Assembly: GCA_946498975.1 (NCBI GenBank) | Contig: CAMMQC010000006.1 | Location: forward strand, 1-52,544 | DNA length: 52,544 nucleotides | Origin: an uncultured Mycoplasmatota bacterium | GTDB lineage: Bacteria; Bacillota_I; Bacilli_A; RF39; UBA660 | Direction of reading: 5' to 3' | Shown: positions 17,339 through 34,953 of the stretch, in pieces | Layout of the letters: every line of letters starts with the position of its first letter | Numbering within the stretch: the first letter of the stretch is position 1 | Translations under genes and position numbers: made by a program | Notes under the pieces: model-generated | Database searches by the model: none | The model's input: the letters and a program-made list of their open reading frames with translations, nothing else | Told to the model about the DNA's origin: nothing

Positions 17339-17806
17339 TTGAAAAAAACAATTGTTTATATCGTTGTTATTTTAGTTATTTTTGCTTTAGCTTGTGCTGT
17401 TTTATTTAACTTTAATAAGAAGGATGATGATGGTAAGGATTTAGAGACTGTAAGACTTGCTGAGGTTGCTCATTCTATTTTCTATGCACCTATGTATGTA
17501 GCGATTGAAGAAGGTTACTTTGAAGAAGTAGGAATTGATATTGAACTTAGTCTTGCAAATGGTGCAGATAAAGTAAGTGCTGCTGTTCTATCAGGTGATG
17601 CTGATATTGGTTTTGCAGGAAGTGAAGCGACTATTTATGTGTATAATGGTGGTGAGAAAGATTATCTTAAGACTTTCGCTAGATTAACTCAAAAAGATGG
17701 TTCATTTATTGTAGCAAGAGAAGATATTAAAGATTTTACACTTGATGATTTAGTTGGTAAGACTATTATTGGTGGTAGAGCAGGTCATCTCCTGTTAAAC
17801 TTATAA
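17339..17806 (+). CDS. ABC transporter substrate-binding protein, 5' part (interrupted by element A)
   Basis: Encodes residues 1-149 of an SsuA/ThiY (NMT1-like) periplasmic-binding-type protein: an N-terminal anchor (about 6-26), then RLAEVAHSIFYAPMYVAIEEGYF, the typical first ligand-lobe motif, and GDADIGFAGSEATIYVYNGG. TTG start with AAAGGAGG 6 bases before it. The reading frame runs into element A after GGRAG and ends after six foreign codons. Joining base 17785 to base 20802 gives GGRAGGMPEMTLEWAL, and the whole protein is then 330 aa, the normal family size. Substrate (thiamine precursor, sulfonate, nitrate or other) cannot be told. Confidence 0.85.
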   Translation: MKKTIVYIVVILVIFALACAVLFNFNKKDDDGKDLETVRLAEVAHSIFYAPMYVAIEEGYFEEVGIDIELSLANGADKVSAAVLSGDADIGFAGSEATIYVYNGGEKDYLKTFARLTQKDGSFIVAREDIKDFTLDDLVGKTIIGGRAGHLLLNL

Positions 17807-17839: not shown

Positions 17840-19036
17840 TTAGGCTTCCTCAATTATTTTCTTTAGTTTATTTATTTGTCTTTGCAATATGACGCATAGT
17901 CTATATATTCTTTTATCAGAAATATGAGTAATGTGTTGATATTCATGAAGTAGGTTGTCAAAGCACTCTGGAATATCATCTAATTTAGATATATCTATTC
18001 TTTTTATATTTCTTACTACTTTGATAATTTCATCAAATGGTTTTACCTCGTAGAAAAATCTTCCATTTCCTGATATGATTACTTCATTTTCATCATAATA
18101 TGGAATGTTTAAAGCCATACCATTATCAAATATAGGTGCAACATCTAACCATTTTAGGGTATTAACATCTCTTATAATACCAAAATTATTTAAGTGTCTA
18201 TCTTCATTCATTATAAGAAAATCTAAGATATACATATTTTCTATCTTTTCCCTAGCATTAGGAATACCGTTTTCCTCTAATTTTTTAATATACTCTTCAT
18301 AGTCATCTGTATTATCATGTCTTTTCATATCATTTCTTATTTGATAGGCTGTAATAAGTTCGGTATCTTTATTTATAAAACAAGGACATTTAGATACTAC
18401 GGTATCTTTATATACATCTAAGGTATAAGGGACATGATTAAAACCTAATCTATCACATATCATAGATGCTAAAACCTCATTAAATGGTTGTAATATTTCA
18501 TTTTTATAACCGCCTTTTAATAGATATCTTGTACCATCTTCAATAATCCATGCTTTTTTTAACATACCATCAGTGGTATTGTTAGGTGTTATAAGAGAAG
18601 TTTCTTTTTTTACTATCTTACTATTAAGTGAAAGTGACGCTTCTAAAAACTCTGCATAATCAAAATCATTATCAAAAAAGTTAATATCATCATACTTTAT
18701 ATCACTGTTAAATGGTTTTAACCAATATTGATCCGATAAAGATAAACCGAAAGCTTTATCTAATAATTCAGTTGGGGCACTTATATCTAGGCGATGTAAT
18801 AATAAATCCAATTTATCTCTCCAAGAAGGAATACCTCTTCCTCTAAACCACTCTGATAAATTTGTTCTAAAAGGAGTATCATTGATATCATCTTTAATAT
18901 AAAAACTCTTTAAAATATAAGGAGCATAATCAATATTTTTAACTTCTATAATTCTATCAAAAAACTTAGAAACTGTATTATATTCTGCAACTAATACTTC
19001 TGTATTTTTATTCATTAAAATACATTTCATAACCAC
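17840..19036 (-). CDS. HipA-like Ser/Thr kinase-fold protein, cargo of element A
   Basis: 398 aa with the kinase core of HipA-type proteins. YLLKGGY near residue 172 holds the ATP-binding Lys; MNEDRHLNNFG near 275 is the catalytic loop (compare N-x-D-R-H-x-x-N-F in HipA); DVAPIFDNGMAL near 297 is the metal-binding Asp motif. The N-terminal third (about 1-160) is not HipB-binding-like as in HipA and is not recognised. No HipB-type HTH partner lies beside it, so it is a stand-alone kinase. Classical HipA phosphorylates glutamyl-tRNA synthetase and causes persistence; the target here is unknown. Confidence 0.72.
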   Translation of the reverse strand: MVMKCILMNKNTEVLVAEYNTVSKFFDRIIEVKNIDYAPYILKSFYIKDDINDTPFRTNLSEWFRGRGIPSWRDKLDLLLHRLDISAPTELLDKAFGLSLSDQYWLKPFNSDIKYDDINFFDNDFDYAEFLEASLSLNSKIVKKETSLITPNNTTDGMLKKAWIIEDGTRYLLKGGYKNEILQPFNEVLASMICDRLGFNHVPYTLDVYKDTVVSKCPCFINKDTELITAYQIRNDMKRHDNTDDYEEYIKKLEENGIPNAREKIENMYILDFLIMNEDRHLNNFGIIRDVNTLKWLDVAPIFDNGMALNIPYYDENEVIISGNGRFFYEVKPFDEIIKVVRNIKRIDISKLDDIPECFDNLLHEYQHITHISDKRIYRLCVILQRQINKLKKIIEEA

Positions 19037-19090
19037 ACCTTCTTCCTAATGTAATATGTATTATTATACCATATTTCCTTATGTTTTTCA

Positions 19091-20650
19091 TTAATATAGC
19101 TTAAATTTATAGTGAATTTTGATGGTTTTATCTTCACTTATAAGTATTTTATCAATTAAGTTTACTAGTAAGGCTCTACTTGGTTTTTCTAAGGATAGAT
19201 ATTCATTTATTTTTTCAAGTATATCTTTATCAGTATCTACTTTATCACTGTTTATGTTTTCTTTTTCAATAGATTCTAGTCTTTTTTTAAAAGAGATTAT
19301 TTCATCTTTATATCTAGCGGTTAGACGATTAAACATCTCTATATCGATATTACCATTTAACTTATCTTCATATACTTTGTCTATATAGGAGTTATTAGTT
19401 CTAATCTTTTTTTCTAATATACTAATTTCTACTTGTTTTTTAACTTTACTATCATTTTTCTTTCTAGCTTCTTCTATCCTTTCTTTAAAAGTAGTACTAT
19501 CTACATACTCTTTACACAGTTTTCTAATCTCCTCTAAAACGAGATTTTCTAGTTTTTTATAATTAAGGCTATGAGGAGTACATAAACCATATTTAGAATG
19601 GGCTGTATAATAAGAACAATGTGTGTAGTATCTTTTACCATCACTACTTTTATTTATTCCTATTTTATGATTACACTCCCTACATTTCATAAAACCAGAA
19701 AGTAACATAATATTATTGCCGGTAGGTTTATTTTTGTTTTTCTTAAGTAATTCCCCTACTGTATCAAATACCTTTTTATCAATAATCGCTTCATGAGTAT
19801 TTTCTTTTATTATCCATTGTTCCTTAGGGGTTCTAATTTCTTTTTTGGACTTATAATTTATTTTTCTTCTTCTTCCTTGAGTCATATTACCAATATATGT
19901 TTCATTAGTAAGCATTTCTTCAATAGTCCTAGGACACCAAAGGTCATAAGCCGTAGATTTCATACCACGATTTAGATTAGCATAAACACTAGGAGTTTCG
20001 ATATGCTCTTTTGAGAAGATATCTGCTATTTGTCTTGGGCTTTTTCCGGTGTATGCTAAAAGAAATATTTTCTTAATAATAGGTCTAATATTTTCATCAA
20101 CTATTAATTTATGTTTATCATTAGGGTCTTTTAAATAACCATAAGGGGCTTTAAAACCTAAGAACTCTCCTTTTTCCTTTTTTGATTTCAAAACTTTTCT
20201 AATCTTTTTAGATGTATCTTTTAAATAGTAATCATTAAACATTAATTTAAATTGTAAAAACTCTAAACCTGGTGTTTCATGGAGAGTATCAATATCATCG
20301 TTTATGGCAATATATCTTATACCTTTCTCAGGAAATATTCTTTCGATATATTCCCCCATAGAGATATAATCTCTTCCCATACGAGATAAATCTTTAGTTA
20401 TAATAGTATTAACCTTACCATTTTCTAAATCTCTCATTAATCTTTTCCAAGAAGGTCTATCAAAATTAGAGCCAGTAAAACCATCATCAACATATTCATC
20501 TATATAAACTAATTTTTCTTCTGTTTTCTCTAAAAATAGATGTAATAAATCTCTTTGATTTGTGATACTTTCACTTTCTAAGTTATCGCCATCTTCACGA
20601 GATAATCTAATATAAAGAGCAGTATTAAATATTTTACTTTTCATATTCAC
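19091..20650 (-). CDS. Large serine recombinase of element A
   Basis: Site-specific recombinase (519 aa) of the resolvase-like large serine integrase family. Residues about 8-160 are the catalytic domain: YIRLSREDG carries the nucleophilic Ser, and DLSRMGRD is the conserved Arg block. The recombinase domain and zinc ribbon follow (GFMKCRECNHKI...Y-HC...C), then a long coiled coil. The open frame begins with GTG at 20650; ATG at 20644 is an equally good start. Overlap with the small ORF upstream (ends 20634) implies coupled translation. It should act on the inverted attachment arms at both ends of element A. Confidence 0.93.
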   Translation of the reverse strand: MNMKSKIFNTALYIRLSREDGDNLESESITNQRDLLHLFLEKTEEKLVYIDEYVDDGFTGSNFDRPSWKRLMRDLENGKVNTIITKDLSRMGRDYISMGEYIERIFPEKGIRYIAINDDIDTLHETPGLEFLQFKLMFNDYYLKDTSKKIRKVLKSKKEKGEFLGFKAPYGYLKDPNDKHKLIVDENIRPIIKKIFLLAYTGKSPRQIADIFSKEHIETPSVYANLNRGMKSTAYDLWCPRTIEEMLTNETYIGNMTQGRRRKINYKSKKEIRTPKEQWIIKENTHEAIIDKKVFDTVGELLKKNKNKPTGNNIMLLSGFMKCRECNHKIGINKSSDGKRYYTHCSYYTAHSKYGLCTPHSLNYKKLENLVLEEIRKLCKEYVDSTTFKERIEEARKKNDSKVKKQVEISILEKKIRTNNSYIDKVYEDKLNGNIDIEMFNRLTARYKDEIISFKKRLESIEKENINSDKVDTDKDILEKINEYLSLEKPSRALLVNLIDKILISEDKTIKIHYKFKLY

Positions 20651-20801: not shown

Positions 20802-21347
20802 GGTATGCCTGAGATGACTCTTGAATGGGCTTTAAGCGATGCTGGAATTGACCCTAAGAATGATGTTAATATTGATACTTCTGTAGCTTTCTCTGCTATG
20901 AGTAGTGCTTTCATTGGAGGGACAGGTGACTTTGTCGCTTTGTTTGAACCTAATGCTTTAGAGTTAGAAAAAGAAGGTTATGGTTATGTTGTTGCAAGTT
21001 TAGGTGAACTTGGTGGAGTTGTTCCTTATACTGCTTTCTTTGCAAGAGATAGTTATTTAAATGAGAATAAAGAACTAATTGAAAACTTTGATAAAGCGAT
21101 TCAAAAGGGAATAGACTTTGTTCATAATAGTTCTGATAAGAAGGTAGCAGAAGCGATAATAGATCAATTTCCTGATACATCACTTGATGATTTAACAAAG
21201 ATTGTAAAACGTTATAGATCTATTGATGCTTGGCCTGATAATACAGAGTTTACCGAAGAAGAATTTGACCACTTACAAGATATTATGATTAATGCGAAAG
21301 AATTAGATAGTAAAGTTCCATTTAGTGACTTGATGTATGAAAACTAA
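20802..21347 (+). CDS. ABC transporter substrate-binding protein, 3' part (interrupted by element A)
   Basis: Continues the 17339 gene. From GGT at 20802 it reads GMPEMTLEWALSDAG and on to the stop at 21347 (181 residues). It contains the second ligand lobe: VAFSAMSSAFIGGTGDFVALFEPNALELE and the C-terminal helices ending KVPFSDLMYEN. An internal ATG at 20805 might allow a truncated product but has no properly spaced ribosome site. The stop overlaps the ATPase start by 11 bases, so the three importer genes form one tightly coupled operon. No stop or frameshift has accumulated. Confidence 0.85.
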   Translation, partial: GMPEMTLEWALSDAGIDPKNDVNIDTSVAFSAMSSAFIGGTGDFVALFEPNALELEKEGYGYVVASLGELGGVVPYTAFFARDSYLNENKELIENFDKAIQKGIDFVHNSSDKKVAEAIIDQFPDTSLDDLTKIVKRYRSIDAWPDNTEFTEEEFDHLQDIMINAKELDSKVPFSDLMYEN

Positions 21348-21762
21348 TATATTAGAAATTACACATTTATCTAAGAATTATCAAGATAAAAGTGGTGAAA
21401 TAGAAGCGATTAAAGATATCAATCTAAAGGTGAATGAGGGAGAGTTTATTGTAATAGTAGGACCTAGTGGATGTGGTAAAAGTACACTGTTATCAATACT
21501 TGCTAATTTAGAGACTAAATCAGGAGGTAATATTAAGTTTTCTGAAGATGATATAAAGCTTGGTTATATGCTTCAAAAAGATAGTTTATTTCCTTGGCTT
21601 AATATCTTAGATAACTGTCTATTGGGTCTTAAATTAAAAGATAAAGTAAGTATGGAAGATAAAGCTTATGTCTTAAAATTACTTGATACTTATGGATTAA
21701 GTGAGTTTATTGATAAGTTTCCTAGAAGTTTATCTGGTGGTATGAGACAAAGAGTTGGTTGA
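21337..21762 (+). CDS. ABC transporter ATPase, 5' part (interrupted by element B)
   Basis: Encodes residues 1-140 of an SsuB/TauB/ThiZ-type importer ATPase: Walker A GPSGCGKST near residue 43, Q-loop MLQKDSLFPW near 87 and signature LSGGMRQR near 133. It ends with a single foreign Gly and TGA inside element B. Joined at the AGTTG core (21753-21757) to 35832, the frame continues as RVALIRTLATKPDILLLDEP, the Walker B region, giving a 250-aa protein. The fragment on its own lacks Walker B and the H-loop and cannot hydrolyse ATP normally. Confidence 0.88.
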   Translation: MKTNILEITHLSKNYQDKSGEIEAIKDINLKVNEGEFIVIVGPSGCGKSTLLSILANLETKSGGNIKFSEDDIKLGYMLQKDSLFPWLNILDNCLLGLKLKDKVSMEDKAYVLKLLDTYGLSEFIDKFPRSLSGGMRQRVG

Positions 21763-21777
21763 ATGTTGTTAAGACAC
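21753..21777. other. Left attachment site (attL) of element B
   Basis: Core AGTTG (21753-21757). The stretch 21757-21777 is an inverted counterpart of 35806-35826 with 19 of 21 positions matching. On each side the arm begins with GTTGAAT or GTTTGAAT and ends GTTAAGACAC. Confidence 0.8.
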
Positions 21778-21778
21778 A

Positions 21779-21815
21779 AAAATAACCTAGTAAAAATTAA
21801 TTACTAAGTTATTTA
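21779..21815 (-). terminator. Terminator at the left end of element B
   Basis: AATAAC-x-TAGTAA pairs with TTACTA-x-GTTATT (one mismatch), immediately after the stop codon of the minus-strand gene at 21809. It shields the attachment arm from outgoing transcription. Confidence 0.6.
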
Positions 21816-22331
21816 TATTCTTCAAATATATCTATATCTCTATTACCAAACTCCCTTGTATATTCATCTTTACAATTTTCTTTATACCAAGATACTTTAT
21901 AATAAATCTTTTCTTTTACTTTATCTATATTGATATTAGAGTTCTTTTCTATAGCATGTAAAATAGGTATAATATCATTATCACAGATACAGATATCATA
22001 ATTAACTATACGTTCTCTTCCATATGATGTTTTTTCTTTCTTTAGTTTTCCTTTATACGATATATATATATATATAATCATCTTTAAATATATGATTTTC
22101 TAAAAAATATGTATAGTCTATATCAACAACTCCACTTGTTTTTAAATATCCTGTCATATATCGTATGGTGCCACTCCTAAATTCAATATAATCATCTGGA
22201 AGATCTTCTTTTTTTATTTTTGTCTTATACATTGCCTTAGAATATAAATATTCATTGTTAGTATCAACACTTCTTATACAACCTTTACCAAATTTCCCTT
22301 TGGTATAAAGGAATGAATTTAATCTTTTCAT
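21809..22331 (-). pseudogene. Gene split by an AT-dinucleotide tract (174 aa if the frame is restored)
   Basis: A first part starts at 22331 (ATG, GAGGAGG site) and reads MKRLNSFLYTKGKF to IFKDDYIYIYIV, then stops at 22053. A second frame continues from the same (AT)8.5 tract as ISYKGKLKKEKTSYGRER to the stop at 21809. Gain of one AT unit (or loss of two) joins them. The two halves together look like one soluble basic protein. It is either a contingency (phase-variable) gene in its OFF state, a decayed gene, or an assembly error in a repeat. Family not recognised. It is the last gene of the small-gene group behind the AAA+ genes. Confidence 0.55.
22060..22076. repeat. (AT)8.5 dinucleotide tract inside a coding frame
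   Basis: Seventeen bases of alternating A and T. Its length sets the frame of the 21809-22331 gene. Confidence 0.8.
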
Positions 22332-22356
22332 ATTTGTTACCTCCTCATTTGATACA

Positions 22357-22418
22357 ACAGTATCACTGGAGTAACTCGGTGTCAAGTATTTTATTTTTGT
22401 ATTCTGTAAAATACAAAA
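22357..22418 (-). promoter_or_regulatory. Promoter of the frameshifted gene with upstream inverted repeat
   Basis: Minus strand: TTGACA (22380-22385), 17 bases, TACTGT (22357-22362), a weak -10. Upstream lies a perfect 9-bp inverted repeat TTTTGTATT-N6-AATACAAAA (22395-22418), a possible operator or terminator of the 22466 gene. Confidence 0.5.
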
Positions 22419-22465
22419 TTGTACTTTTAAACATTTTTGTTTTGTGTAAAATAAAAAGAAATAGA

Positions 22466-22687
22466 CTAATATCTACTTCTATGTTTTATTCTTTTCACTC
22501 TACCATGTGTATTACTAGTTGTATCAGCATTTCCTTGATTCAAAAATGCAGGATTTACTTTATACATATCTAATTCTACTTTGTCTGAATGTTCCATTTT
22601 TCTTTTTATATCTTTATCATATTCTGCCATATTATGATTAATATTTTCTAATATTAAATTAAGTTCTTCCTGTGTAAGTTTTCCCAT
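22466..22687 (-). CDS. Small protein of unknown function, 73 aa (element B)
   Basis: Starts at an ATG with AGGAGG 6 bases upstream. The sequence is helical at the N-terminus (KLTQEELNLILENINHNMAEYDKDIKRKMEH) and ends with a basic tail (GRVKRIKHRSRY), so it might bind nucleic acid or act as a small adaptor. It lies about 50 bases downstream of the 117-aa gene in the same direction. I recognise no family. The strong ribosome site argues that it is real. Confidence 0.6.
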   Translation of the reverse strand: MGKLTQEELNLILENINHNMAEYDKDIKRKMEHSDKVELDMYKVNPAFLNQGNADTTSNTHGRVKRIKHRSRY

Positions 22688-22739
22688 AATGTACCTCCTA
22701 TGCCTATTAGTTTAACATATTTCTTCTTATTATTAAATA

Positions 22740-23093
22740 CTAAAATTCATCTAATAATGGGAAAGTTTTTTCACTATTTAGAAAATAATATATTTCTTCT
22801 AAAACTCGATAATAGTAATCTATCTTTCCATCATTTTGATTAGCATTTAAGATATTAAATAAATCTAGGTATACTTTTTTTACAATACTCTTATCATTAC
22901 TCATTATTAACATAATATTGTATAATCTTGTAAATACCATTTCTAAATTACAGGCAGTTGAGATTTTACCTTCAAGCATAGCAATTTCTTTAGCTTTATC
23001 AATAGGTATTTCAGGATATGCAGTAGTTATTTCATTTGCTATTAGATTTATTCTATCTTCTTCTAATAAGTTACCATTATATTCATACTGCAT
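22740..23093 (-). CDS. Protein of unknown function, 117 aa, directly behind the AAA+ gene (element B)
   Basis: Acidic, all-helical protein without signal peptide (LIANEITTAYPEIPIDKAKEIAMLEGKISTACN...). It starts 1 base after the stop of the ClpX-like gene at 23095, so its expression is tied to that gene. That position suits an adaptor, inhibitor or substrate of the unfoldase. Family not recognised; the link to the AAA+ protein is inference from spacing only. Confidence 0.6.
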   Translation of the reverse strand: MQYEYNGNLLEEDRINLIANEITTAYPEIPIDKAKEIAMLEGKISTACNLEMVFTRLYNIMLIMSNDKSIVKKVYLDLFNILNANQNDGKIDYYYRVLEEIYYFLNSEKTFPLLDEF

Positions 23094-23094
23094 A

Positions 23095-24783
23095 TTATTT
23101 TCTAACCTTTCTTTTTACAGTCTCTTCAGTTATCTTTTTAACAGTATCAACATCTAAATAAATTGTATCTTCTTTACCACGTAAAACTTCTTTTAAGAAA
23201 GGTGTTCTTATATTATTCATTACAGTTTGAAGACTTCTTGCACCTGTATTAAGGTCATAGGCAGCATCTGCAATAGCTTCATAAACACCATCTTCTATTA
23301 TTAATTTCTTACCATGTGAAGTTATCCATTTTTCAAAGCCAGCAATAGGACTTATTGTAGATTCTTTTAAAATTCTAAGTAATGACTCTTTAGAATATTC
23401 TTCTGTATGAAGAAATGTATTAAACCTACCTGCTAATTCTTTTTTTAGACCAATGTCAATTAAATCTTGAACTGTAATAGTATAGCTTTCGTTATTTTGG
23501 GCTTCTGCTCTATTTCCAAAACCGATAATTTGTTTTTTTTGAGTCTTTTTTTCTCTTAAATCTGTTAGAGCTGCTAAACATATAAAAGTTAATTTAGATG
23601 TATCAAATGTAATTTTTTCCCTATTGAAAAGATTATCACCAACAACAATTTCGTATGTTCCTCCACCCATAAAATCAAGTAATTGTTGTTGAACAGCTTT
23701 TTTCATCTCTAATAAACCATTCTCACTGCTATTTGCTAATTTATCAAATTCATCAAAAACAATAATACCTCTTTCTGCCATTTCCAAATTGCCACTTGCT
23801 TGTTTATATAGTGTTTCTAATGTATCAGTAATGTTTCCGCCAACATATCCCGTTGAAGAATAATTAACAATTGAGGTAGCCGTAAATGGAATATCTAACT
23901 TTTCTGTAATCTCTCTTGTAATAGCAGTTTTACCTGTTCCTGTTGGACCATCAAGGAATATTATAGACCTTTCACCATTTAAAGCATCATCTTTTGATGC
24001 TAAATCTTGGTTGTTAACAATATTATAAAATAAAGCTTCTGCTGCTACTTCTTGACCAATAAACTTGGCTTTTATATCATCAAGTATAGACCATAATTCT
24101 TCACTGTCTAAATCTATTTTTTTCTCTTCTTTGTTTTCTGATGGTTTTTCTCCAATATCGAGAAATTCTTTTAGTTGACTATTTAATGATATTACTCCAG
24201 GTAGTTTAAAGTTTTGCTTATTTGAAGAAGGCTTTTTTTGTAAAAGTCCATGTAATATAGCATAATTTTTTACAGTTTTAGCAATTGGATGGTCAAAAAA
24301 ATATTTTTTTGTATTATAAGTCTTCAAAAAATAATCTAGAATTTTAGAACCCATTACATCAATTGCATCAAAAGAGCAAATTATAATTTCTGGTGTAATC
24401 TTTCTTATGTTGATATTACTTGAGAAATTTTCAATTATAGACATTAATTCCAATTTAAAACATTTGTCATAAAATCCGCTATATTCAAGCTCTTCTAATT
24501 TTTTTATTTCCTCTTCTTTGGTATTTATAAAATCAAATAAATCTCTTTTTTGCAAGTCCTCATATTCATCTAATATATTACTTAGATTAGGAGTATAGAA
24601 ACTAGCTATAAATAAAGAAAGTATTTTTTTATCTAATTTTGAAAAAGTATATTCTTTGTATTCTACATAATCCTTTACTTTTTTGTTAATCTCCTTATCT
24701 TTTATTGTTGAATAAATATCCATTGCTTTATTTAGATATTCTTTTGTTTCATCATCAAAATTTTCATATGTAAAATCTAACAT
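23095..24783 (-). CDS. ClpX-like AAA+ unfoldase with IGF loop, 562 aa (element B)
   Basis: The C-terminal half is a ClpX/HslU-type AAA+ module: Walker A GPTGTGKT near residue 279, pore loop GYVG near 313 (identical to ClpX), Walker B VFDEFDKL near 340, IGFG near 420 (equivalent to the ClpP-docking loop of ClpX), a RFNTFL block and sensor 2 TGARSLQT near 513. The first roughly 200 residues are a helical domain found also in the neighbouring paralogue; they replace the zinc-binding domain of ClpX. So it could feed ClpP, but with different substrates. Own promoter upstream (24816-24844) and AGGGGG start. Confidence 0.82.
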   Translation of the reverse strand: MLDFTYENFDDETKEYLNKAMDIYSTIKDKEINKKVKDYVEYKEYTFSKLDKKILSLFIASFYTPNLSNILDEYEDLQKRDLFDFINTKEEEIKKLEELEYSGFYDKCFKLELMSIIENFSSNINIRKITPEIIICSFDAIDVMGSKILDYFLKTYNTKKYFFDHPIAKTVKNYAILHGLLQKKPSSNKQNFKLPGVISLNSQLKEFLDIGEKPSENKEEKKIDLDSEELWSILDDIKAKFIGQEVAAEALFYNIVNNQDLASKDDALNGERSIIFLDGPTGTGKTAITREITEKLDIPFTATSIVNYSSTGYVGGNITDTLETLYKQASGNLEMAERGIIVFDEFDKLANSSENGLLEMKKAVQQQLLDFMGGGTYEIVVGDNLFNREKITFDTSKLTFICLAALTDLREKKTQKKQIIGFGNRAEAQNNESYTITVQDLIDIGLKKELAGRFNTFLHTEEYSKESLLRILKESTISPIAGFEKWITSHGKKLIIEDGVYEAIADAAYDLNTGARSLQTVMNNIRTPFLKEVLRGKEDTIYLDVDTVKKITEETVKRKVRK

Positions 24784-24815
24784 ATATAATCCCCCTTTAT
24801 TTCAAATGTAGGCAT

Positions 24816-24844
24816 ATTATATCACTTTTTTGCTACTTTGTCAA
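24816..24844 (-). promoter_or_regulatory. Promoter of the ClpX-like gene at 23095
   Basis: Minus strand: TTGACA (24839-24844), exactly 17 bases, TATAAT (24816-24821). A full consensus sigma-A promoter sits between the two AAA+ genes, so the downstream copy can be made on its own. Confidence 0.85.
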
Positions 24845-24899
24845 ATTTGCTGCTCATTATATTAAAGAAATTCTCATGGAAAAAGCACTAGATAAGAGA

Positions 24900-26504
24900 T
24901 TATTTTCTAACCTTTCTAACAAATGTCTTTTCTATGGCATTATTAATTCTAGAAGCATCAAGATAAACTGTATTATCTTCTCCTGTAAATACTTCTTCTA
25001 AATAAATTGTTCTTACATTATTCATTATAGTTTGCAAACTTCTTGCACCTGTATTTAATTTATAAGCAGCATTGACTATTGCTTCATAAACGTCATCTGC
25101 TATTATTGGTGTTTTCCCATATGCAATTATCCATTTTTCGAAACTTTTAATCGGACTTATTGTAGATTCTTTTAAAATTCTTAGTAAATCATAACTAGAA
25201 TATTCCTCAGTGTGAAGAAAGGTATTAATTCTACCAACTAATTCTTTTTCAAGACCAATATTAATTAAATCATCAGGTTCAATGGTATAGGTGTCGCCAT
25301 TAATCATTTTATTTTTTCTTAGTTCTGTTAAAGCTCCTAAGAAGATAAAGGTTAAGTTTGAAGTATCAAATTCAATCTTTTTTTGGTCCATTATATTTTC
25401 ACCAACATTTATCTCATAAATACCTCCACCTGTAAAATCTAACAATTGTTGCTGGACGGCTTTTTTCATATCTAAACCATAGCCATTTTCACGATTATAA
25501 GCTAGTTTGTCAAATTCATCTAAGACAATGATACCTCGTTCAGCTTTTTCTAAATTATTACCAGCTTTTCTATACAATCTTATTAGTATATTAACTATAT
25601 CATCACCTCTATAACCAGTTGATGAATAATTAACAGCAGATGATGTAACTAAGGGAATATTTAATCTATTTGTAATCTCTCTTGTTATAGCAGTCTTTCC
25701 TGTTCCGGATGATCCATCAAGAAAAATTACAGAACGTTCTCCATCATTCAAGTCTATGTCTGAGGTTATTTTTTGATTATTAATTATATTATAAAATAAA
25801 TATTTCGTTACTTCTTCTTGGCCAATAAATTTTGTTTTTGTTGCATCAAGTATAGATAGTAATTCTTCTTTATTAACAGTAAATGTGTTCTGCTTTTTTT
25901 CTTCTTTTTCTTCATCAAATTCAGAAAAGAAATCATCTTCAGTATTTTTAACTTGTAATATTCCATTTATCTTAATATAATTTCTTATAGCATCAAAACA
26001 CGGATGAGTTGAAATATATGCTACTGTATTTATATTATCACTAAAATATTTGATGAAATATTCTATTACTTTAGAACCTGCAACAGTTCTTCTCATATAA
26101 TGAAATATAATTTCAGGTCTTAATTCTTTAAAAGAATAGATACTTGCTTCTTCATTTAGGATACTAATTAAATCTAATCTAAATTTTTTGTCATAATATT
26201 CTCTATAATCATTGCTTTCTAATGGTTTAATATTTTCTTTTTCTGTATTAACAAAAGAAAATAAATCATCTGCTTTAATATCATCATACTCTTTTAAAAT
26301 ATTAGCCAAATTAGTATTAGATATAAAACTAGCGATAAACATTGAAAAGACTTTTTTATCTAGTCTTGAAAAAGTATATTCTATTGTTTTATAACCGTCT
26401 TTTATTTCTTTAGTAATTTCTATATTTTCAATACTTGAATAAATATCCATTGCTTTGTTTAGAAAAATTTTTGTCTCTTCATTAAGGCTTTCATATGAAA
26501 ACAT
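24900..26504 (-). CDS. ClpX-like AAA+ paralogue lacking the IGF loop, 534 aa (element B)
   Basis: Paralogue of the 23095 protein along its whole length, including the helical N-terminal domain (FLNKAMDIYSSIE; compare YLNKAMDIYSTIK). AAA+ motifs: GSSGTGKT near residue 266, pore loop GYRG (Arg replaces Val) near 298, VLDEFDKLA, and TGARSLQT. The segment between ALTEL and YTIEPDDL is shortened, and the IGF(G) loop is missing, so docking to ClpP is unlikely. It may form mixed rings with the other copy or act as a protease-free remodeller. It begins 30 bases after copA, on the same strand, so it may also be read from the metal-responsive promoter. Confidence 0.8.
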   Translation of the reverse strand: MFSYESLNEETKIFLNKAMDIYSSIENIEITKEIKDGYKTIEYTFSRLDKKVFSMFIASFISNTNLANILKEYDDIKADDLFSFVNTEKENIKPLESNDYREYYDKKFRLDLISILNEEASIYSFKELRPEIIFHYMRRTVAGSKVIEYFIKYFSDNINTVAYISTHPCFDAIRNYIKINGILQVKNTEDDFFSEFDEEKEEKKQNTFTVNKEELLSILDATKTKFIGQEEVTKYLFYNIINNQKITSDIDLNDGERSVIFLDGSSGTGKTAITREITNRLNIPLVTSSAVNYSSTGYRGDDIVNILIRLYRKAGNNLEKAERGIIVLDEFDKLAYNRENGYGLDMKKAVQQQLLDFTGGGIYEINVGENIMDQKKIEFDTSNLTFIFLGALTELRKNKMINGDTYTIEPDDLINIGLEKELVGRINTFLHTEEYSSYDLLRILKESTISPIKSFEKWIIAYGKTPIIADDVYEAIVNAAYKLNTGARSLQTIMNNVRTIYLEEVFTGEDNTVYLDASRINNAIEKTFVRKVRK

Positions 26505-26534
26505 GTGTTAAGCACCCCCATAGAACAGATTATA

Positions 26535-28733
26535 TCACGTTAATAAATTATAATAAAGACTTACTTTTTTAAGTCTTAGAGAGTTTATAACTACGGTTAA
26601 ACTGCTAATAGTCATAGCAACACTTGCAAACATAGGATTCATACTTATTCCATAGTTTTCTAATAAGCCAATTGCGATAGGTATCATAAGTAAATTATAG
26701 AAGAAAGCCCAGAATAAGTTTTCTTTAATGATGAGATATGCTTTTTTACTTATTTTAATAAGGTCTAAAATATTAGAAATATCGTTATTCATAAGAATTA
26801 CATCAGCTGAGTCCATGGCAACATCTGTTCCATCATTAACACTTATACCAATAGTGGCATTTACTAAAGCAGGAGCATCATTAATACCATCTCCTACCAT
26901 TATTACTTTTTTACCTTTGTTAGTAAGGTCTTTAATAACAGAGGCTTTTTTCTTTGGTAAGACATTAGAAATTACTTTAGTTATACCTAACTCTTCTGCA
27001 ATAGACTCAGCAGTTACTTCATTATCTCCTGTTAACATAATTACTTCTATATTATTATCTTTAAACTTAGTTATAACATCTTTTATATTAGATCTAACTA
27101 TATCTTTAACACCTATTAGACCAATAACAATACCTTCTTCTATTACATAGATAATACTACAGCCATTATTTATTAAATTATTATAGTCTTCTTTATGATT
27201 ATCTTTTATTTTTAAATCTTTTAATAGAGAGTTATTACCTAGATAATATACTTTGTTATTAATACTTGCTTTTATTCCTTTACCATTTAATGTTTTAAAG
27301 TCAGTTACTTCTATTTTCTTTCTAACTTTAAAGGCAGTACTTATAGGATGAGAAGAACTCTTTTCTATATTAGATACAATATTAATTAAATCATTATCTT
27401 TATAATTAGAATAATTATATGTCTTATAGATATTTAAAGTTCCATTTGTAAGGGTTCCTGTTTTATCAAAGACAATAGTATCAATATCTTTAGCTTTCTC
27501 TAAGACTTCACTATTTCTTAAGAATAATCCTTTTTTAGCACATAATCCATTACTTACAACTACAACAAGTGGTACGGCAAGACCTAAAGCACAAGGACAA
27601 GCGACTACTAAGACTGTTACCATATGAATTAGAGATACTTCTAAAGGTAGTCCTATAAGTATCTGGATTATAAATGCTAGAAAAGCGATTAATAAGATAA
27701 CTGGAACGAAGATACCACTTACTTTGTCGGCAAGACGTTGTATTTTAGTCTTGGTATTAGTGGATTCTACTACTAGTTTAACTATTTCTGAGATGGTAGA
27801 GTCTTTTCCTATTTTCTTGGCAGTATATTCAATAAGTCCGTCATAACTAATAGATCCGGCGATAACATTTGAACCTTTTTCTTTTAAGACTGGGGTACTT
27901 TCTCCTGTAATAAAGCTTTCATTAACATAGGCTTTACCTTTAGTAACAATACCATCGACTGCTATTTTCTCTCCGGCTTTACAAATTAATGTATCTCCTA
28001 CTTCTACTCCATCGATAGTTACTTCTAACTCCTTATCATTCTTTTTTATAGTGGCACAAGTAGGAGTTATTTGGACTAGCTTTCTAATAGCATCTTTAGT
28101 TTTATCTTTACTAGAGTCTTCTAACACTCTACCTAGTTTAATAAAGTAAATTACCATACAAGTAGATTCAAAATATAGATTATGGATGTAGGCATTATTT
28201 CCTTTTAATATATTTATATAACTATAAAGACTATAGAGGAAACTAAAGATGACACTAAACATTACTAAAGTATCCATATTAGGCATTTTATGAAGTAAAT
28301 TCTTTATACCACTTTTGATAATGTCTAGTCCATAGATTAAATACACTAAAGTAATTATCAACAGGGTTGTGGATAAAATAAGAGGATGATTATGGTTAAG
28401 ATATGGGATACTTGGTAAGTTTAACATATCTCCCATAGATATATACATAATAAAGATAATAAGTAATCCTAGGATTATTAGTTTTATCTTATCAGTTTTT
28501 TTAGTAACTTTATCTTCTATTCCTTTGAATTCTCCTAAACTAGTAAATCCTGCTTCTTTAATAAATCTTTCTATATCTTTAACAGTTATATTTTCATAGG
28601 TAATAGTAGCGATAGATAAGACTAAATTAACAGTTGCACTAGTAATCCCTTCTTGTTTATTAAGATATTTTTCTAGTCCTGATGAACAGGCACTACAAGT
28701 CATTCCACCTATTTTTAAAACTATTTTTTTCAT
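26535..28733 (-). CDS. copA: Copper-type P1B ATPase (CopA-like)
   Basis: Metal-exporting P-type ATPase. The N-terminal metal-binding domain has GMTCSACS (residues 9-16). The ion-channel motif is CPC (VACPCALGLAV near 380), phosphorylation site DKTGT near 424, then TGDNE and the GDGIND hinge. CPC together with the N-terminal CxxC is typical of Cu(I) exporters. 732 aa with eight expected membrane spans, including one pair before the actuator domain. It is the last gene of the cadC operon, 2 bases behind cadA. Copper is inferred from motif type. Confidence 0.9.
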   Translation of the reverse strand: MKKIVLKIGGMTCSACSSGLEKYLNKQEGITSATVNLVLSIATITYENITVKDIERFIKEAGFTSLGEFKGIEDKVTKKTDKIKLIILGLLIIFIMYISMGDMLNLPSIPYLNHNHPLILSTTLLIITLVYLIYGLDIIKSGIKNLLHKMPNMDTLVMFSVIFSFLYSLYSYINILKGNNAYIHNLYFESTCMVIYFIKLGRVLEDSSKDKTKDAIRKLVQITPTCATIKKNDKELEVTIDGVEVGDTLICKAGEKIAVDGIVTKGKAYVNESFITGESTPVLKEKGSNVIAGSISYDGLIEYTAKKIGKDSTISEIVKLVVESTNTKTKIQRLADKVSGIFVPVILLIAFLAFIIQILIGLPLEVSLIHMVTVLVVACPCALGLAVPLVVVVSNGLCAKKGLFLRNSEVLEKAKDIDTIVFDKTGTLTNGTLNIYKTYNYSNYKDNDLINIVSNIEKSSSHPISTAFKVRKKIEVTDFKTLNGKGIKASINNKVYYLGNNSLLKDLKIKDNHKEDYNNLINNGCSIIYVIEEGIVIGLIGVKDIVRSNIKDVITKFKDNNIEVIMLTGDNEVTAESIAEELGITKVISNVLPKKKASVIKDLTNKGKKVIMVGDGINDAPALVNATIGISVNDGTDVAMDSADVILMNNDISNILDLIKISKKAYLIIKENLFWAFFYNLLMIPIAIGLLENYGISMNPMFASVAMTISSLTVVINSLRLKKVSLYYNLLT

Positions 28734-28735
28734 AA

Positions 28736-30589
28736 TTAATCCTCTTTTACTCTTAGTATTCTTAAAGCATTAATGATAGCGATAACTGAGACACCAACAT
28801 CGGCAAAGACTGCACACCACAGTGTTGTTGCTCCTAGGGTGCTTAGTAATAATACAAGTATTTTAACTGTGATAGCGAATACAATATTCTCTTTTACTAT
28901 TTGCATTGTCTTTTTACTTATTTTAATAGCATTTGCAAGTTTAGATGGTTCATCTGTCATAATTACGATATCTGCTACTTCTATCGCAGCATCACTACCA
29001 AGTCCTCCCATCGCTACTCCTATATCTGATAAGGCAAGAACAGGAGCATCATTAATACCATCTCCTATAAAGACTAGTTTGCCATCTATACTTTTTTCTT
29101 GCATTAAAGACTCTACTTTTTTAACTTTATCTTGAGGAAGTAGTTCAGCATAATACTTATCTAGTTTTAATTCTTTTGAGACATTTTTACTAATTTCTTC
29201 TCTATCTCCTGTTAACATTACTATTTTCTTAACATTATTTCTTCTAAATTCTTTAACTGCTTTATAAGCATCATCTTTAATTTTATCAGAGATAGTGATA
29301 GATCCGGCGAAAGTTTTATCAATAGCGATATAAATAACAGTTCCAATATCATTACTCTTAATGTAGTCAATATTATATTCTTCCATTAACTTTTCATTAC
29401 CTACTAGAACTTCTTTAGTATCTACTTTTGCAATAACTCCTTTACCTTTAAGTTCTTTAGTTTTTGTAACTATTTTTTCATTAATATCTTTACCATAAGC
29501 TTCTTTAATAGATAAGGCGATTGGGTGATTAGAATAGTTCTCTGCATAACTTGTATATTTTAGTAAATCTTCCTTTGAGTAATCTATAGCATTAACTTTT
29601 TGGACTTTGAATATTCCTTCTGTTAGAGTTCCTGTCTTATCACAAACAACTATTTCGGTGTTTGCAAGAGCCTCTAAATAGTTACTACCCTTTATTAAAA
29701 CTCCTATTTTAGATGAAGCACCTATTCCTCCAAAGAAACTTAGAGGTATTGATATTACTAAGGCACAAGGACAAGAGACAACTAAGAATGATAAGGCTCT
29801 ATATATCCAAGTTTTAAAGTTAGTATCTAATATTAAAGGTGGAATAAAGGCAAGAAGAATAGCGATTATTACAACTATAGGAGTGTAGTATTTAGCAAAT
29901 TTACTGATAAAGTTTTCTGATTTAGATTTTCTACTACTAGCATTTTCTACTAAGTCTAAGATTTTACTAACAGTAGATTCACAAAACTCTTTAGTTACTT
30001 TAACTTTTAGTATTCCTTCATTATTAATACATCCACTTAATACTTCATCAGTCTCAGTTACACTTTTTGGCATAGACTCTCCTGTTAGAGCAAGAGTATT
30101 AAGAAGAGAGTTACCTTCTACTACTATACCATCTAATGGTATTTTTTCTCCTGGTTTTATTAAGATAATATCACCAATTTTAACTTTATTAGGTTCTACT
30201 CTTTCAGTCTTTTCATCATGATAAAGATTGGCATAATCTGGTCTTATATCCATTAAAGATGCAACAGACTTTCTTGATTTATCAACAGCATAACTTTGAA
30301 ATAGTTCACCTACTTGATAGAAAAGCATTACTGCAACTGCTTCAGGAAATTCTCCTATAAAAAAGGCTCCTATGGTTGCAATAGTCATTAAAAAGTTTTC
30401 ATCAAAGACTTTTCCTCTTGTGATGTTTCTTAAAGCTTTTAAGATGATATCATAACCTACTATTAGGTAGGAAATAATAAATAGAATATCGCTAATGATA
30501 ACATTATCTAGTTTAAGGATAAATGCCAATACTAGTAAGATAAAAGATATTATAATTCTAATTAATTTTTTCTTCATCTTTTTTGTCAT
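28736..30589 (-). CDS. cadA: Zn/Cd/Pb-type P1B ATPase (CadA/ZntA-like)
   Basis: 617-aa heavy-metal exporter. CPC channel motif SCPCALVISIPLSFFGGIG near residue 272 is the form seen in Zn/Cd/Pb pumps; phosphorylation site CDKTGTLTEG near 317; TGDREE; GDGINDAP. There is no N-terminal CxxC domain in the protein itself. That domain is encoded separately by the 74-aa gene 2 bases upstream, so the usual single polypeptide appears split. Cd/Zn/Pb are the likely substrates. Confidence 0.9.
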   Translation of the reverse strand: MTKKMKKKLIRIIISFILLVLAFILKLDNVIISDILFIISYLIVGYDIILKALRNITRGKVFDENFLMTIATIGAFFIGEFPEAVAVMLFYQVGELFQSYAVDKSRKSVASLMDIRPDYANLYHDEKTERVEPNKVKIGDIILIKPGEKIPLDGIVVEGNSLLNTLALTGESMPKSVTETDEVLSGCINNEGILKVKVTKEFCESTVSKILDLVENASSRKSKSENFISKFAKYYTPIVVIIAILLAFIPPLILDTNFKTWIYRALSFLVVSCPCALVISIPLSFFGGIGASSKIGVLIKGSNYLEALANTEIVVCDKTGTLTEGIFKVQKVNAIDYSKEDLLKYTSYAENYSNHPIALSIKEAYGKDINEKIVTKTKELKGKGVIAKVDTKEVLVGNEKLMEEYNIDYIKSNDIGTVIYIAIDKTFAGSITISDKIKDDAYKAVKEFRRNNVKKIVMLTGDREEISKNVSKELKLDKYYAELLPQDKVKKVESLMQEKSIDGKLVFIGDGINDAPVLALSDIGVAMGGLGSDAAIEVADIVIMTDEPSKLANAIKISKKTMQIVKENIVFAITVKILVLLLSTLGATTLWCAVFADVGVSVIAIINALRILRVKED

Positions 30590-30591
30590 TA

Positions 30592-30816
30592 TTAAACCTC
30601 CTCGATACTTACATCTGGTTCTTCTCTTCTTATTACTTTCTTAATTTGTTTTAAGGCATTGTTTAGATTATCTTCACTACAACTAAATGAGAGTCTTTCT
30701 GTCATAAAACTAATAGAGACATTTTCTATTAAGTCAATCTTTCTTAAAGATTCTTCTAAAAGATTAGCACAGTTAGCACAATCTAATCCTTCTATTTTAT
30801 ATTTATAATCTTTCAT
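30592..30816 (-). CDS. Heavy-metal-associated (HMA) domain protein, 74 aa
   Basis: A free-standing ferredoxin-like HMA domain: YKIEGLDCANCANLLEESLRK carries the metal-binding CxxC. It occupies exactly the place of the N-terminal domain of CadA and stops 2 bases before the pump gene, so it is best read as a split-off regulatory domain that delivers metal to the pump or acts as chaperone. The C-terminal extension (VIRREEPDVSIEEV) matches the linker of CadA-type N-domains. A detached HMA peptide as first subunit is known in some Bacillota. Confidence 0.88.
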   Translation of the reverse strand: MKDYKYKIEGLDCANCANLLEESLRKIDLIENVSISFMTERLSFSCSEDNLNNALKQIKKVIRREEPDVSIEEV

Positions 30817-30831
30817 ATTATTTCCTTCTTT

Positions 30832-31194
30832 CTATCCTTTATGATTAATATGTTCTAGTCCTATTTCAAATAGTTTAACAATATGGTCATCATCTAAAGT
30901 GTAATATACTTCTTTACCACTTCTTCTACATTTAACTATGCCACTTCTTCTTAGGGTTGCTAATTGATGAGAAACACTTGATTTAGTCATATTTAAAACA
31001 TTGGCTAAGTCACATACACACATTTCGTCTTGATCGAGTGCAAAAAGTATTCTACATCTTGTTGTATCACCTATTAGTTTAAATAAGTCTGCTAGATGAT
31101 TAAAAGTATTTTCTGAAGGCATTTTATTTAATACCTTATCCACTGCTTCCTCATGAATAATATTACAATCACATGAAAATTCATTTCTAGACAT
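30832..31194 (-). CDS. cadC: ArsR/SmtB-family metal sensor, CadC-like
   Basis: Winged-helix repressor that leaves DNA on binding Cd, Pb or Zn. Residues about 40-110 are the ArsR HTH (DLANVLNMTKSSVSHQLATLRRSGIVKCRRSGKEVYYTL). The CVC motif on alpha-3 and the N-terminal pair CDC (residues 8-10) supply the Cys set used by CadC for soft metals. Its promoter carries palindromic half sites. First gene of the operon with the HMA protein, cadA and copA; autoregulation is expected. 120 aa, normal length. Confidence 0.9.
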   Translation of the reverse strand: MSRNEFSCDCNIIHEEAVDKVLNKMPSENTFNHLADLFKLIGDTTRCRILFALDQDEMCVCDLANVLNMTKSSVSHQLATLRRSGIVKCRRSGKEVYYTLDDDHIVKLFEIGLEHINHKG

Positions 31195-31223
31195 ATCATC
31201 ACATCCTATTAATATTATATGTT

Positions 31224-31281
31224 ATAGTTGAATTCTTACTCAACTATCTTTATTATAGTTGAATGGTCATTCAATTGTCAA
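31224..31281 (-). promoter_or_regulatory. CadC-type operator and promoter of the metal operon
   Basis: Minus strand: TTGACA (31276-31281), 18 bases, TATAAT (31252-31257). The spacer is filled by TTGAATG-GT-CATTCAA (31259-31274), a perfect palindrome. Downstream, TCAACTAT (31240-31247) and ATAGTTGA (31255-31262) form another pair, and a single ATAGTTGAA lies at 31224. The operator between -35 and -10 fits repression released by metal. Confidence 0.82.
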
Positions 31282-31285
31282 GAGT

Positions 31286-31322
31286 AAAAAAATACTAATA
31301 TAAATTACTTATAATTAGTATT
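31286..31322 (-). terminator. Terminator of the Nudix gene
   Basis: AATACTAAT (31291-31299) pairs with ATTAGTATT (31314-31322). On the minus strand a T-run follows. It overlaps the Nudix stop codon region and separates that gene from the cadC promoter. Confidence 0.7.
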
Positions 31323-32133
31323 ATTTTTTGTTATAACTATCTATTTCTAATAACTCTTCTAAATAACTTCTTTTAGGATTTTTTAACTTATTTAATTCCT
31401 CTTTAGTCTTCTTCTTATTTATAAAGTGAAGGTTAGAAAATTCTATTTCTAAGTTATTATCTTTTAGGTATGTTAAATACTCTTTGTAGTATTCTATCAT
31501 TTCCTTTTTAGTCATTTTTAACTTACTTTTAGCGATAATGAGATAGGCATTAGATTTTTCATTCGGTATACTTATGTATTTTAGTTTAAAACTTTCTATC
31601 ATGTTTTTATCTTCTAAATTAATATTTACTTCTTCCTTACATTCTCTTATTAGAGCATTAAATATATCTACCCTTTCTTCTTTAATATCAGTATTATCAA
31701 CATTACCTCCTGGTATTTGTAAACAGTTAGGAACTGAAGTATTACTTGCCATCTCTCCTATTACATAATAATTATCACTAGTTTCTAATAGACAACCTAC
31801 TACTAGGTTATGACACCCATATCCTTTAGGTAATCCTACTCTTTCATCATATAAATGATGTGAATATAGTGTTCTTTTACAAGTAATCTCTATTAGACTA
31901 TTTACTTCCTTATATCCACTTACACAAATTAGCTCACCATTAAAAAGACTAGGATTATCTTTCTTACTCTGTTTCCAAAAAATACTTATTTGTTCTTTTA
32001 TGTCTTTTGGTAGTTCTAGTATTTCATCTTTGAATTTTATTTTTATAGTTGTTCCTTCAATATTTTTTAACATATTAATATCACCCGTCTTATAGATTAA
32101 TTTTATATTATCATTTAAGTTTGGTAAATGCAA
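31321..32133 (-). CDS. Nudix hydrolase-like protein, 270 aa (element B)
   Basis: Nudix hydrolases cleave nucleoside diphosphates linked to another group. A Nudix box-like stretch is present near residues 146-180: IPGGNVDN...RECKEEVNINLED, where REC-x-EE is the metal-binding core, but the spacing after GG is several residues longer than in the canonical G-x5-E-x7-RE. The roughly 80 N-terminal and 50 C-terminal residues are not assigned. Between the cadC operon (convergent side) and tsaC (divergent). Substrate unknown. Confidence 0.7.
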   Translation of the reverse strand: MHLPNLNDNIKLIYKTGDINMLKNIEGTTIKIKFKDEILELPKDIKEQISIFWKQSKKDNPSLFNGELICVSGYKEVNSLIEITCKRTLYSHHLYDERVGLPKGYGCHNLVVGCLLETSDNYYVIGEMASNTSVPNCLQIPGGNVDNTDIKEERVDIFNALIRECKEEVNINLEDKNMIESFKLKYISIPNEKSNAYLIIAKSKLKMTKKEMIEYYKEYLTYLKDNNLEIEFSNLHFINKKKTKEELNKLKNPKRSYLEELLEIDSYNKK

Positions 32134-32160
32134 TAATCCATCATTTTCTTACGACATTTC

Positions 32161-32189
32161 TTGCAAGTCTTATTGGTCAGTGATACAAT
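32161..32189 (+). promoter_or_regulatory. Promoter of tsaC (element B)
   Basis: TTGCAA (32161-32166), 17 bases, TACAAT (32184-32189), 22 bases before the chosen start codon. Confidence 0.65.
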
Positions 32190-32211
32190 TCTTTAAATGG
32201 AAGGTGAATTT

Positions 32212-32826
32212 ATGAAGCGATGTAAACAAAGTGAAATAGAAGAAGTTGTAACTGTTCTTAAAAATGATGGTGTTATTAGTGTTCCTACTGATACTGTTTA
32301 TGGAATATGTGCTAGGATTAATTCAAGTAAGGCTTATCTTAAGTTAGTCAGTGTTAAAAATCGTCCTTCTACTAAGTCTTTTCCTGTTATGTGTAGTGAT
32401 ATAGAACAAATTAAAAGTATTGCTACTCTTGATGATAATGCTCTTAAATTAATTAAAGCTTTTATGCCTGGTCCTATTACTTTAGTCTTAAATAAAAGAC
32501 CTGATGCCTTTTCATATATTAATAATGCTGGTACAAGAGAGACAGATGAACTTGCTATTAGGATGATTCCATCTAAATTCTTAAATGAATTAATCGAAAA
32601 AGTTGGTAGTCCTTTGTTTTTAACGAGTGCTAATAAATCTGGGATGGATGTATGTAAGAGTTTAGATGAAATAGAGATAGAATGCCCTACTCTTGATGGT
32701 ATGGTTATGGGTGATGTATCTTTTGGAGAAGCTAGTACGATTGTTGATCTTACTGGTAATGATATAAAAATTCAAAGACATGGACCTATTAAAGAGGAAC
32801 AAATTATGAAAGTTCTTAAAAGATAA
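32212..32826 (+). CDS. tsaC: L-threonylcarbamoyladenylate synthase, YrdC/TsaC type (on element B)
   Basis: Makes threonylcarbamoyl-AMP from Thr, bicarbonate and ATP, first step of tRNA t6A formation. The start at 32212 follows GGAAGGTG (an in-frame ATG at 32197 lies before the site). Motifs: VISVPTDTVYGICARI near residue 22, K-N-R-P near 50, FMPGPITLVL near 90, SANKSGM near 144. At about 204 aa it is the single-domain YrdC form without the Sua5 extension. The remaining t6A genes (tsaD, tsaB, tsaE) are 15 kb away on the chromosome; this one rides on a mobile element. Confidence 0.88.
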   Translation: MKRCKQSEIEEVVTVLKNDGVISVPTDTVYGICARINSSKAYLKLVSVKNRPSTKSFPVMCSDIEQIKSIATLDDNALKLIKAFMPGPITLVLNKRPDAFSYINNAGTRETDELAIRMIPSKFLNELIEKVGSPLFLTSANKSGMDVCKSLDEIEIECPTLDGMVMGDVSFGEASTIVDLTGNDIKIQRHGPIKEEQIMKVLKR

Positions 32827-32844
32827 TATTTATTCTTAAGTATT

Positions 32845-32890
32845 AAATCACTTCTCATTTTAATATAGATTAATGAGGAGTGATTTTTTA
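32845..32890 (+). terminator. Terminator behind tsaC that masks the next ribosome site
   Basis: AAATCACTTCTCATT pairs with AATGAGGAGTGATTT (14 of 15 plus a wobble), then a T-run running directly into the ATG of the 39-aa ORF. GAGGAG, the ribosome site of that ORF, lies in the 3' arm, so the hairpin both ends tsaC transcripts and hides the start of the recombinase operon. Confidence 0.75.
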
Positions 32891-33009
32891 TGTGTTCTTA
32901 TAATGTTTTATCTGAATATGATAAATCTATTAGTGATGATGAGTTAAAAATAATAATTAATGATAAGTTATTTAGAATTATTACTATTCTTGAGATGAAT
33001 TTAGAATGA
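32890..33009 (+). CDS. Small ORF coupled to the element B recombinase (39 aa)
   Basis: ATG with GAGGAG upstream; product MCSYNVLSEYDKSISDDELK..., ending TILEMNLE. The stop overlaps the recombinase ATG by 4 bases (ATGA), a classical translational coupling. Same arrangement as the 33-aa ORF ahead of the element A recombinase, although the sequences differ. Possibly a recombination-directionality or regulatory peptide; function unknown. Confidence 0.55.
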   Translation: MCSYNVLSEYDKSISDDELKIIINDKLFRIITILEMNLE

Positions 33010-34565: not shown

Positions 34566-34754
34566 AAAAAAATTAGTTTAACTGTATATTATATTAATAG
34601 AGATGGTAAAGAGAAAAACGTGATAGATGTCATGTTTTTTAATTGTATTTAGTTAATATTTTCACTATTTATATGAAAATACTATGTGTCTTGGTATCTT
34701 GGCATGAACTCTGTCTAACTAAAGCAATTACTATTTTGAAGAAAGGAAGGGATA

Positions 34755-34905: not shown

Positions 34906-34953
34906 TGGTTTTAAGCTGTTAGTATGATTATAAAGAAAAGGAAGGAATTATAT

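Follow-up and report, generated by a model that had tools for sequence, protein, structure and literature searches.

The window, i.e. the whole stretch of 52,544 nucleotides that was analysed, contains two genes for ClpX-type AAA+ proteins (AAA-1 and AAA-2) and a short gene directly behind the first of them, all three within an integrated element. The features of this region are as follows:

21337-21762 and 35894-36163: split ABC-transporter ATPase gene, N-terminal (left) and C-terminal (right) part
21754-21757 and 35828-35831: GTTG at both junctions of the element
21758-35827, no strand assigned: integrated element of about 14 kb with imperfect inverted ends, splitting the ABC-transporter ATPase gene
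21809-22081, minus strand: 90-aa ORF, element cargo
22053-22385, minus strand: 110-aa ORF, element cargo
22466-22687, minus strand: 73-aa ORF, element cargo
22740-23093, minus strand: 117-aa gene (partner gene), one base downstream of AAA-1; its product (family YEYNGNL...) is predicted to comprise five helices
23095-24783, minus strand: AAA-1, ClpX-type AAA+ unfoldase of 562 aa with an IGF (ClpP-docking) loop and a Clp_N-like N-domain (about residues 1-184)
24816-24844, minus strand: consensus promoter of AAA-1 and the 117-aa gene (TTGACA-17-TGnTATAAT, 12/12 match), in the gap between AAA-2 and AAA-1
24900-26504, minus strand: AAA-2, IGF-less ClpX-type AAA+ protein of 534 aa, forming a distinct lineage with the proteins of the related loci L007 and L115
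26535-31194, minus strand: two metal P-type ATPases, an HMA-like 74-aa protein and an ArsR-type regulator, element cargo
33006-34565, plus strand: large serine recombinase of the element

An earlier note on this DNA had described a mobile pair of unfoldases with three small partner genes. The mobility was confirmed for the window, as the module of unfoldase and 117-aa gene is part of the serine-recombinase element that splits the ABC-transporter ATPase gene. It lies at one end of this element. Three related loci (L035, L036 and L037) share the left junction, with AAA-1 and the 117-aa gene close to it. Searches of IMG/VR, PLSDB and INPHARED for a phage or plasmid origin of the module gave matches to the general ClpX motor only. 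Among the three small genes, only the 117-aa gene turned out to be conserved, while the others belong to the cargo of the element. The 73-aa ORF is placed as described, but its product is no more than mildly basic on inspection; among the fetched loci, L036 was the only other one to contain it, within the same ssuB-type element. The 110-aa and 90-aa ORFs overlap at a (TA)9 tract near 22060 (22053-22081) and would comprise about 180 aa if joined; probably they represent one gene broken at this tract, of which L036 retains only the 3' part. The broken frame, which had been taken for that of a phase-variable gene, may reflect phase variation or decay, and no sign of actual phase variation was observed.

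Beside the recombinase, the element carries further cargo at 32197-32826 and 34924-35814, which by eye is similar to a Sua5/TsaC-type and a BRO-N-type protein. A second small element (17840-20650) encodes a HipA-like protein (PDC-M03A as best PADLOC match, E 1.4e-17) and another serine recombinase; it interrupts the substrate-binding-protein gene (17339-17806 and 20805-21347) of the same ABC transporter. The right edge of the window (52102-52544, minus strand) comprises a 5S rRNA and the 3' end of a 23S rRNA.

AAA-1 and AAA-2 showed an identity of 57% across 528 aligned residues, including the N-domain. Matches of both to ClpX models were highly significant (E 1e-43 and 1e-46), and both remained far below the curated ClpX cut-offs, at less than half of the required score, with 147 and 159 bits compared to 359 bits for TIGR00382 and 126 and 141 bits compared to 371 bits for NF003745. 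Each protein contains one AAA+ module, and the likeness to solved ClpX chains starts at about residue 207-235 and is confined to this module. AAA-1 comprises the motifs GPTGTGKT, GYVG, DEFDK, IIGFG, GRF and GARS, and AAA-2 comprises GSSGTGKT, GYRG, DEFDK, GRI and GARS, while the IGF loop is absent. ORFs and motifs are therefore as described for the two paralogues before. In an alignment with ClpX relatives, Walker A, Walker B, pore-1 loop, box VII arginine and sensor 2 were intact in both proteins. No motif of the RKH loop of ClpX was found in AAA-1 or AAA-2, where this loop is replaced. The same holds true for the N-terminal C4 zinc domain of ClpX, since AAA-1 has cysteines only at 108, 136 and 402 and AAA-2 only at 169.

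The IIGFG motif of AAA-1 sits exactly at the IGF position of ClpX, and members of the wider family show the motif at the same place. Thus, it is not a chance match, and the importance attributed to this loop was justified. Nearly all IGF-bearing lineages, including distant ones, showed the motif at the ClpX position; in many members it reads LGF, and L039 carries IVF instead. For E. coli ClpX, the exchange I268L was described to reduce ClpP binding (PMC7112951). The predicted promoter in the gap between AAA-2 and AAA-1 would allow the transcription of AAA-1 and the 117-aa gene without AAA-2 from an own transcription start. Since the overall promoter scan gave about as many promoter-like sites as in shuffled sequence, the weight of this site results from its perfect match and its location.

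The helical N-domain that both proteins share instead of the zinc domain was reproduced by structure prediction. The model of residues 1-184 (pLDDT 92.4, pTM 0.90) is mostly helical with one beta-hairpin, and its best Foldseek match was the N-domain of ClpA (probability 0.80, E 0.36). In the VIA comparison, all 22 of the first 22 ranks were Clp/Hsp100 N-domains or the related ClpT, with Z-scores from 8.7 to 5.0, while the next unrelated match reached 2.7. The highest values were determined for ClpC (Z 8.7, rmsd 3.2 across 126 residues), Hsp104 (7.9), ClpB (7.1) and ClpA (7.0). According to the model, the N-domain has the fold of the ClpA/ClpB/ClpC N-domains, which is a statement on fold and not on homology. 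Sequence and profile searches for a Clp_N likeness were negative, and a sequence homology with the ClpC N-domains of the host was rejected, as hhalign gave a probability of 0.1%, equal to shuffled controls. Since this profile comparison gives nothing, the fold likeness to Clp_N may exist without homology. In most of the AAA-1 and of the AAA-2 comparisons, the N-domain showed 57-60% identity compared to 82-90% for the motor, and a dN/dS of 0.4-0.6 compared to 0.17-0.33. This faster divergence of the N-domain was not seen in the pairs L035/L036 and L042/L109.

The 117-aa gene is separated from the 562-aa gene by a single base (23094 lies between the stop codon and the ATG), as the earlier note had stated. 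Among the fetched relatives, about 30 distinct loci from many genera showed a 117-aa gene immediately behind a ClpX-type gene, in most cases 0-3 nt apart. All of them belong to one family of gut Bacilli, and most adjoin housekeeping genes. Outside the genus of the window, the copies are mostly chromosomal with neighbours such as ffh, polA, valS, eno, dCTP deaminase and similar genes. Some of the fetched relatives deviate from this arrangement: L112 and L119 are 117-aa genes lacking the neighbour, L123 and L124 are fragments, and no 117-aa gene accompanies the four unfoldases L041 and L051-L053, of which L051-L053 represent one lineage. Nine of 35 genomes from the genus contain the 117-aa family, and its occurrence among the sampled genomes of the bacterial family is patchy (16 of 386). 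In a phylum sample of 295 genomes, it was found only in the genome of the window itself. The distances between the 117-aa proteins correlate with N-domain distances (r 0.77) and motor distances (r 0.69), and none of 2000 permutations reached either value, although such a mirror-tree correlation can arise from shared descent alone. Altogether, unfoldase and 117-aa gene very probably form one functional unit. The compact system proposed before does exist in this form, but an obligate pair of unfoldases within it is not supported, as relatives carry one unfoldase alone.

The structure model of the 117-aa protein (pLDDT 92.3, pTM 0.87) comprises five helices. No convincing match was obtained in Pfam, PHROG or the PDB (best Foldseek E 1.5), the best VIA match reached Z 5.2 with unrelated helical proteins, and no viral look-alike was found at E <1. 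Among the matches listed for the model there was no structure resembling ClpS, MecA or SspB, although one may still exist. By analogy, there is about an even chance that the 117-aa protein is an adaptor, and the predicted five-helix protein is regarded as a candidate for a new adaptor family.

The assumption of an obligate pair of unfoldases had to be abandoned. Among the fetched relatives, AAA-1-type and AAA-2-type proteins stand side by side only in the window. The relatives in the same element (L035-L038) carry AAA-1 and the 117-aa gene without AAA-2, L007 and L115 carry an AAA-2-type protein and the 117-aa gene without AAA-1, and the chromosomal loci carry one unfoldase each. These loci thus argue against the pair of unfoldase genes, but not against the unit of unfoldase and 117-aa gene. 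The gene order of L007 (genome G013, 66% complete) is P-ATPase, AAA-2-type gene and 117-aa gene, the latter being 89% identical to that of the window. The first 25 codons of this AAA-2-type gene and the upstream region with the promoter are AAA-1-like, while the remainder is AAA-2-like. In this other species, an AAA-2-type gene has thus taken over the position of AAA-1 ahead of an AAA-1-type 117-aa gene and, if functional, works with an AAA-1-type partner. AAA-2 was not seen to be fused in frame to the 3' end of AAA-1 in L007, as only the 5' end and the promoter are AAA-1-like.

AAA-2 clusters with the protein of L007 and that of L115 (genome G202 from another genus, with an own 117-aa gene), and this IGF-less clade has a support of 100/98. 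This clustering rules out a recent tandem copy of AAA-1 and, as judged from the sequences, AAA-2 originates from an older, separate IGF-less lineage. A decaying pseudogene is likewise unsupported, because the dN/dS of the AAA part is 0.20 compared to L007 and all catalytic motifs are kept. A more distant IGF-less group, referred to as type B (L116, L117, L118, L121 and the upstream unit of L048, L048:3-533), is characterized by a Walker A of SSTGGGKT, a GYKG pore and an own 117-aa family gene behind each member. In L048, the type-B unit lies directly upstream of an IGF-bearing unit, which represents an independent parallel to the window. One type-B protein (L116) carries repeats as N-domain, Sel1-like by eye. 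Accordingly, the IGF loop was lost in at least two lineages, each time as a whole loop and with the 117-aa partner retained. Since the 117-aa gene is kept after such losses and follows IGF-bearing and IGF-less ATPases alike, the partner belongs to the unfoldase and not to ClpP, and the 117-aa protein itself is no pointer to ClpP. The adjacency of AAA-1 and AAA-2 in the window reflects the assembly on a mobile element and not an obligate pairing.

ClpX is among the most conserved bacterial unfoldases. In a genome-wide search, AAA-1 and AAA-2 were the only ClpX-type proteins in the genome of the window, and canonical ClpX above the cut-off was found in none of 196 sampled genomes of the family, while other families of the class do have it. 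About 39% of the genomes in this sample carry one to four diverged ClpX-type proteins. ClpP is present in 167 of 192 sampled family genomes, and the ClpP of the window's genome can be aligned over its full length with solved ClpP chains and looks canonical. In one genome (G229, 94% complete), an FGF-bearing unit was observed, yet no ClpP was found. Within an incomplete coverage of the literature, we found no paper that describes the loss of ClpX in this family or the proteins described here. Altogether, the sampled gut Bacilli family shows no recognisable canonical ClpX, a retained ClpP and a patchy set of diverged ClpX-type motors with several N-domains.

Two further groups of ClpX-type proteins were observed. 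In a sample of 20 (L125-L144), another N-domain was encountered repeatedly, often beside hisS and usually together with an IGF motif. The proteins with this domain (L126, L129, L130, L135, L138 and others) comprise 480-840 aa, and in some (L141, L142 and L127) the motor appears degenerate. A third group in the genus of the window comprises proteins of about 520 aa with LGF or IGF in most of them, and many copies lie beside nrdD/nrdG (L065, L067-L070, L072, L073, L078, also L074-L076 and L079).

Based on these observations, we propose that AAA-1 is a ClpX-derived single-ring unfoldase, in which a rapidly evolving N-domain with the ClpA/ClpB/ClpC fold has taken the place of the zinc domain. By analogy with ClpX, ClpA and ClpC, docking of AAA-1 on the host ClpP via the IGF loop appears fairly probable, and substrates would most likely be unfolded into ClpP. 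The N-domain and the helical 117-aa partner would choose or deliver these substrates. AAA-2 would be a sister lineage that lost the docking loop and kept the ATPase machinery; most likely, it remodels substrates independently of ClpP and shares the 117-aa partner with AAA-1. The many LGF motifs and the FGF-bearing unit of G229, a genome in which no ClpP was found, weigh against this proposal, as do the negative profile comparison of the N-domain and the occurrence of the 117-aa gene behind both IGF-bearing and IGF-less ATPases. Taken as a whole, the proposal of AAA-1 and the 117-aa protein feeding host ClpP, a ClpP-independent AAA-2 and a common partner is slightly favoured.

A different explanation would be that AAA-1 and AAA-2 co-assemble into mixed rings, as had been suggested in the earlier note, in which the IGF-less subunits lower or switch the docking on ClpP and the 117-aa protein is common to both. 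The identity over the full length including the N-domain, the placement of both types in one and the same position ahead of 117-aa genes of one kind and the second locus with an IGF-less unit directly upstream of an IGF-bearing one (L048) are consistent with this. Since each type occurs alone in relatives, AAA-1 has a predicted promoter of its own and both proteins are separate lineages, such rings are quite unlikely, and that the number of IGF loops in the ring sets whether and how tightly ClpP docks, with the 117-aa partner common to both, is slightly less probable still. If true, they would represent a switchable protease or remodeller in bacteria otherwise without ClpX. The module could also act independently of ClpP throughout, so that the IGF loop would be a remnant and complexes would be disassembled as by ClpX alone. 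The retention of the 117-aa partner by IGF-less members (AAA-2, L007, L115, L116-L118, L121) and the replacement of IGF by IVF in L039 point in this direction. Against this, the motif is kept in place across very divergent members, and when it is lost, the whole loop goes, which makes a ClpP-independent function of all members rather unlikely.

Two of the functions suggested earlier were compared with the genomic neighbourhood. The patchy occurrence, the mobility in the window and the fast N-domain, which could serve as a target sensor, would fit a phage-defence or conflict module. However, the chromosomal copies adjoin housekeeping genes (ffh, polA, valS, dCTP deaminase), and the matches to 12 PADLOC families near these loci are single, scattered and generic, as for example one to polA. 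PADLOC-DB 2.0.0 gave only weak generic AAA matches for the module proteins (best E 1.4e-6) and none for the small proteins. Without a consistent PADLOC signal, a defence function is improbable. A role in proteostasis under metal stress, deduced from the P-type ATPases that the element carries next to the module (window, L007 and L035-L038), is least credible and can nearly be dismissed, as the metal genes are element cargo and absent beside about 20 chromosomal loci in other genera.

The module with its natural IGF-less sisters represents a natural experiment on the evolutionary exchange of ClpP docking and substrate choice. Compared to the known systems, AAA-1 resembles ClpX in the single AAA+ module, Walker A and B, the GYVG pore, box VII, sensor 2 and the position of the IGF motif, which in ClpX belongs to the loops that hold ClpP (PMC7112951, PMC7112952). 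In contrast to ClpX, the module has neither zinc domain nor RKH loop and reaches only 126-159 bits compared to cut-offs of 359-371, while it comprises a Clp_N-like N-domain and a dedicated 117-aa partner; furthermore, AAA-2 shows no IGF loop and a GYRG instead of the GYVG pore. The predicted fold of the N-domain resembles that of the class I Hsp100 proteins ClpA, ClpC and ClpB (Z 7.0, 8.7 and 7.1), which are characterized by a Clp_N double-repeat N-domain and two AAA+ modules, whereas AAA-1 and AAA-2 have one AAA+ module of the ClpX type and the N-domain sequence is not recognisable as Clp_N. The N-domains of class I Hsp100 proteins such as ClpA and ClpC bind adaptors, among them ClpS and MecA. 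Like ClpS, MecA and SspB, the 117-aa protein would be a small protein acting with an unfoldase; it differs from these adaptors in that the searches gave no sequence or structural match to them. Multiple ClpX paralogues, with accessory copies in specialised roles, are described for Myxococcus xanthus (PMC11423568). There, the accessory copies accompany an essential ClpX1, whereas the present proteins occur without a canonical ClpX and with exchanged N-domains.
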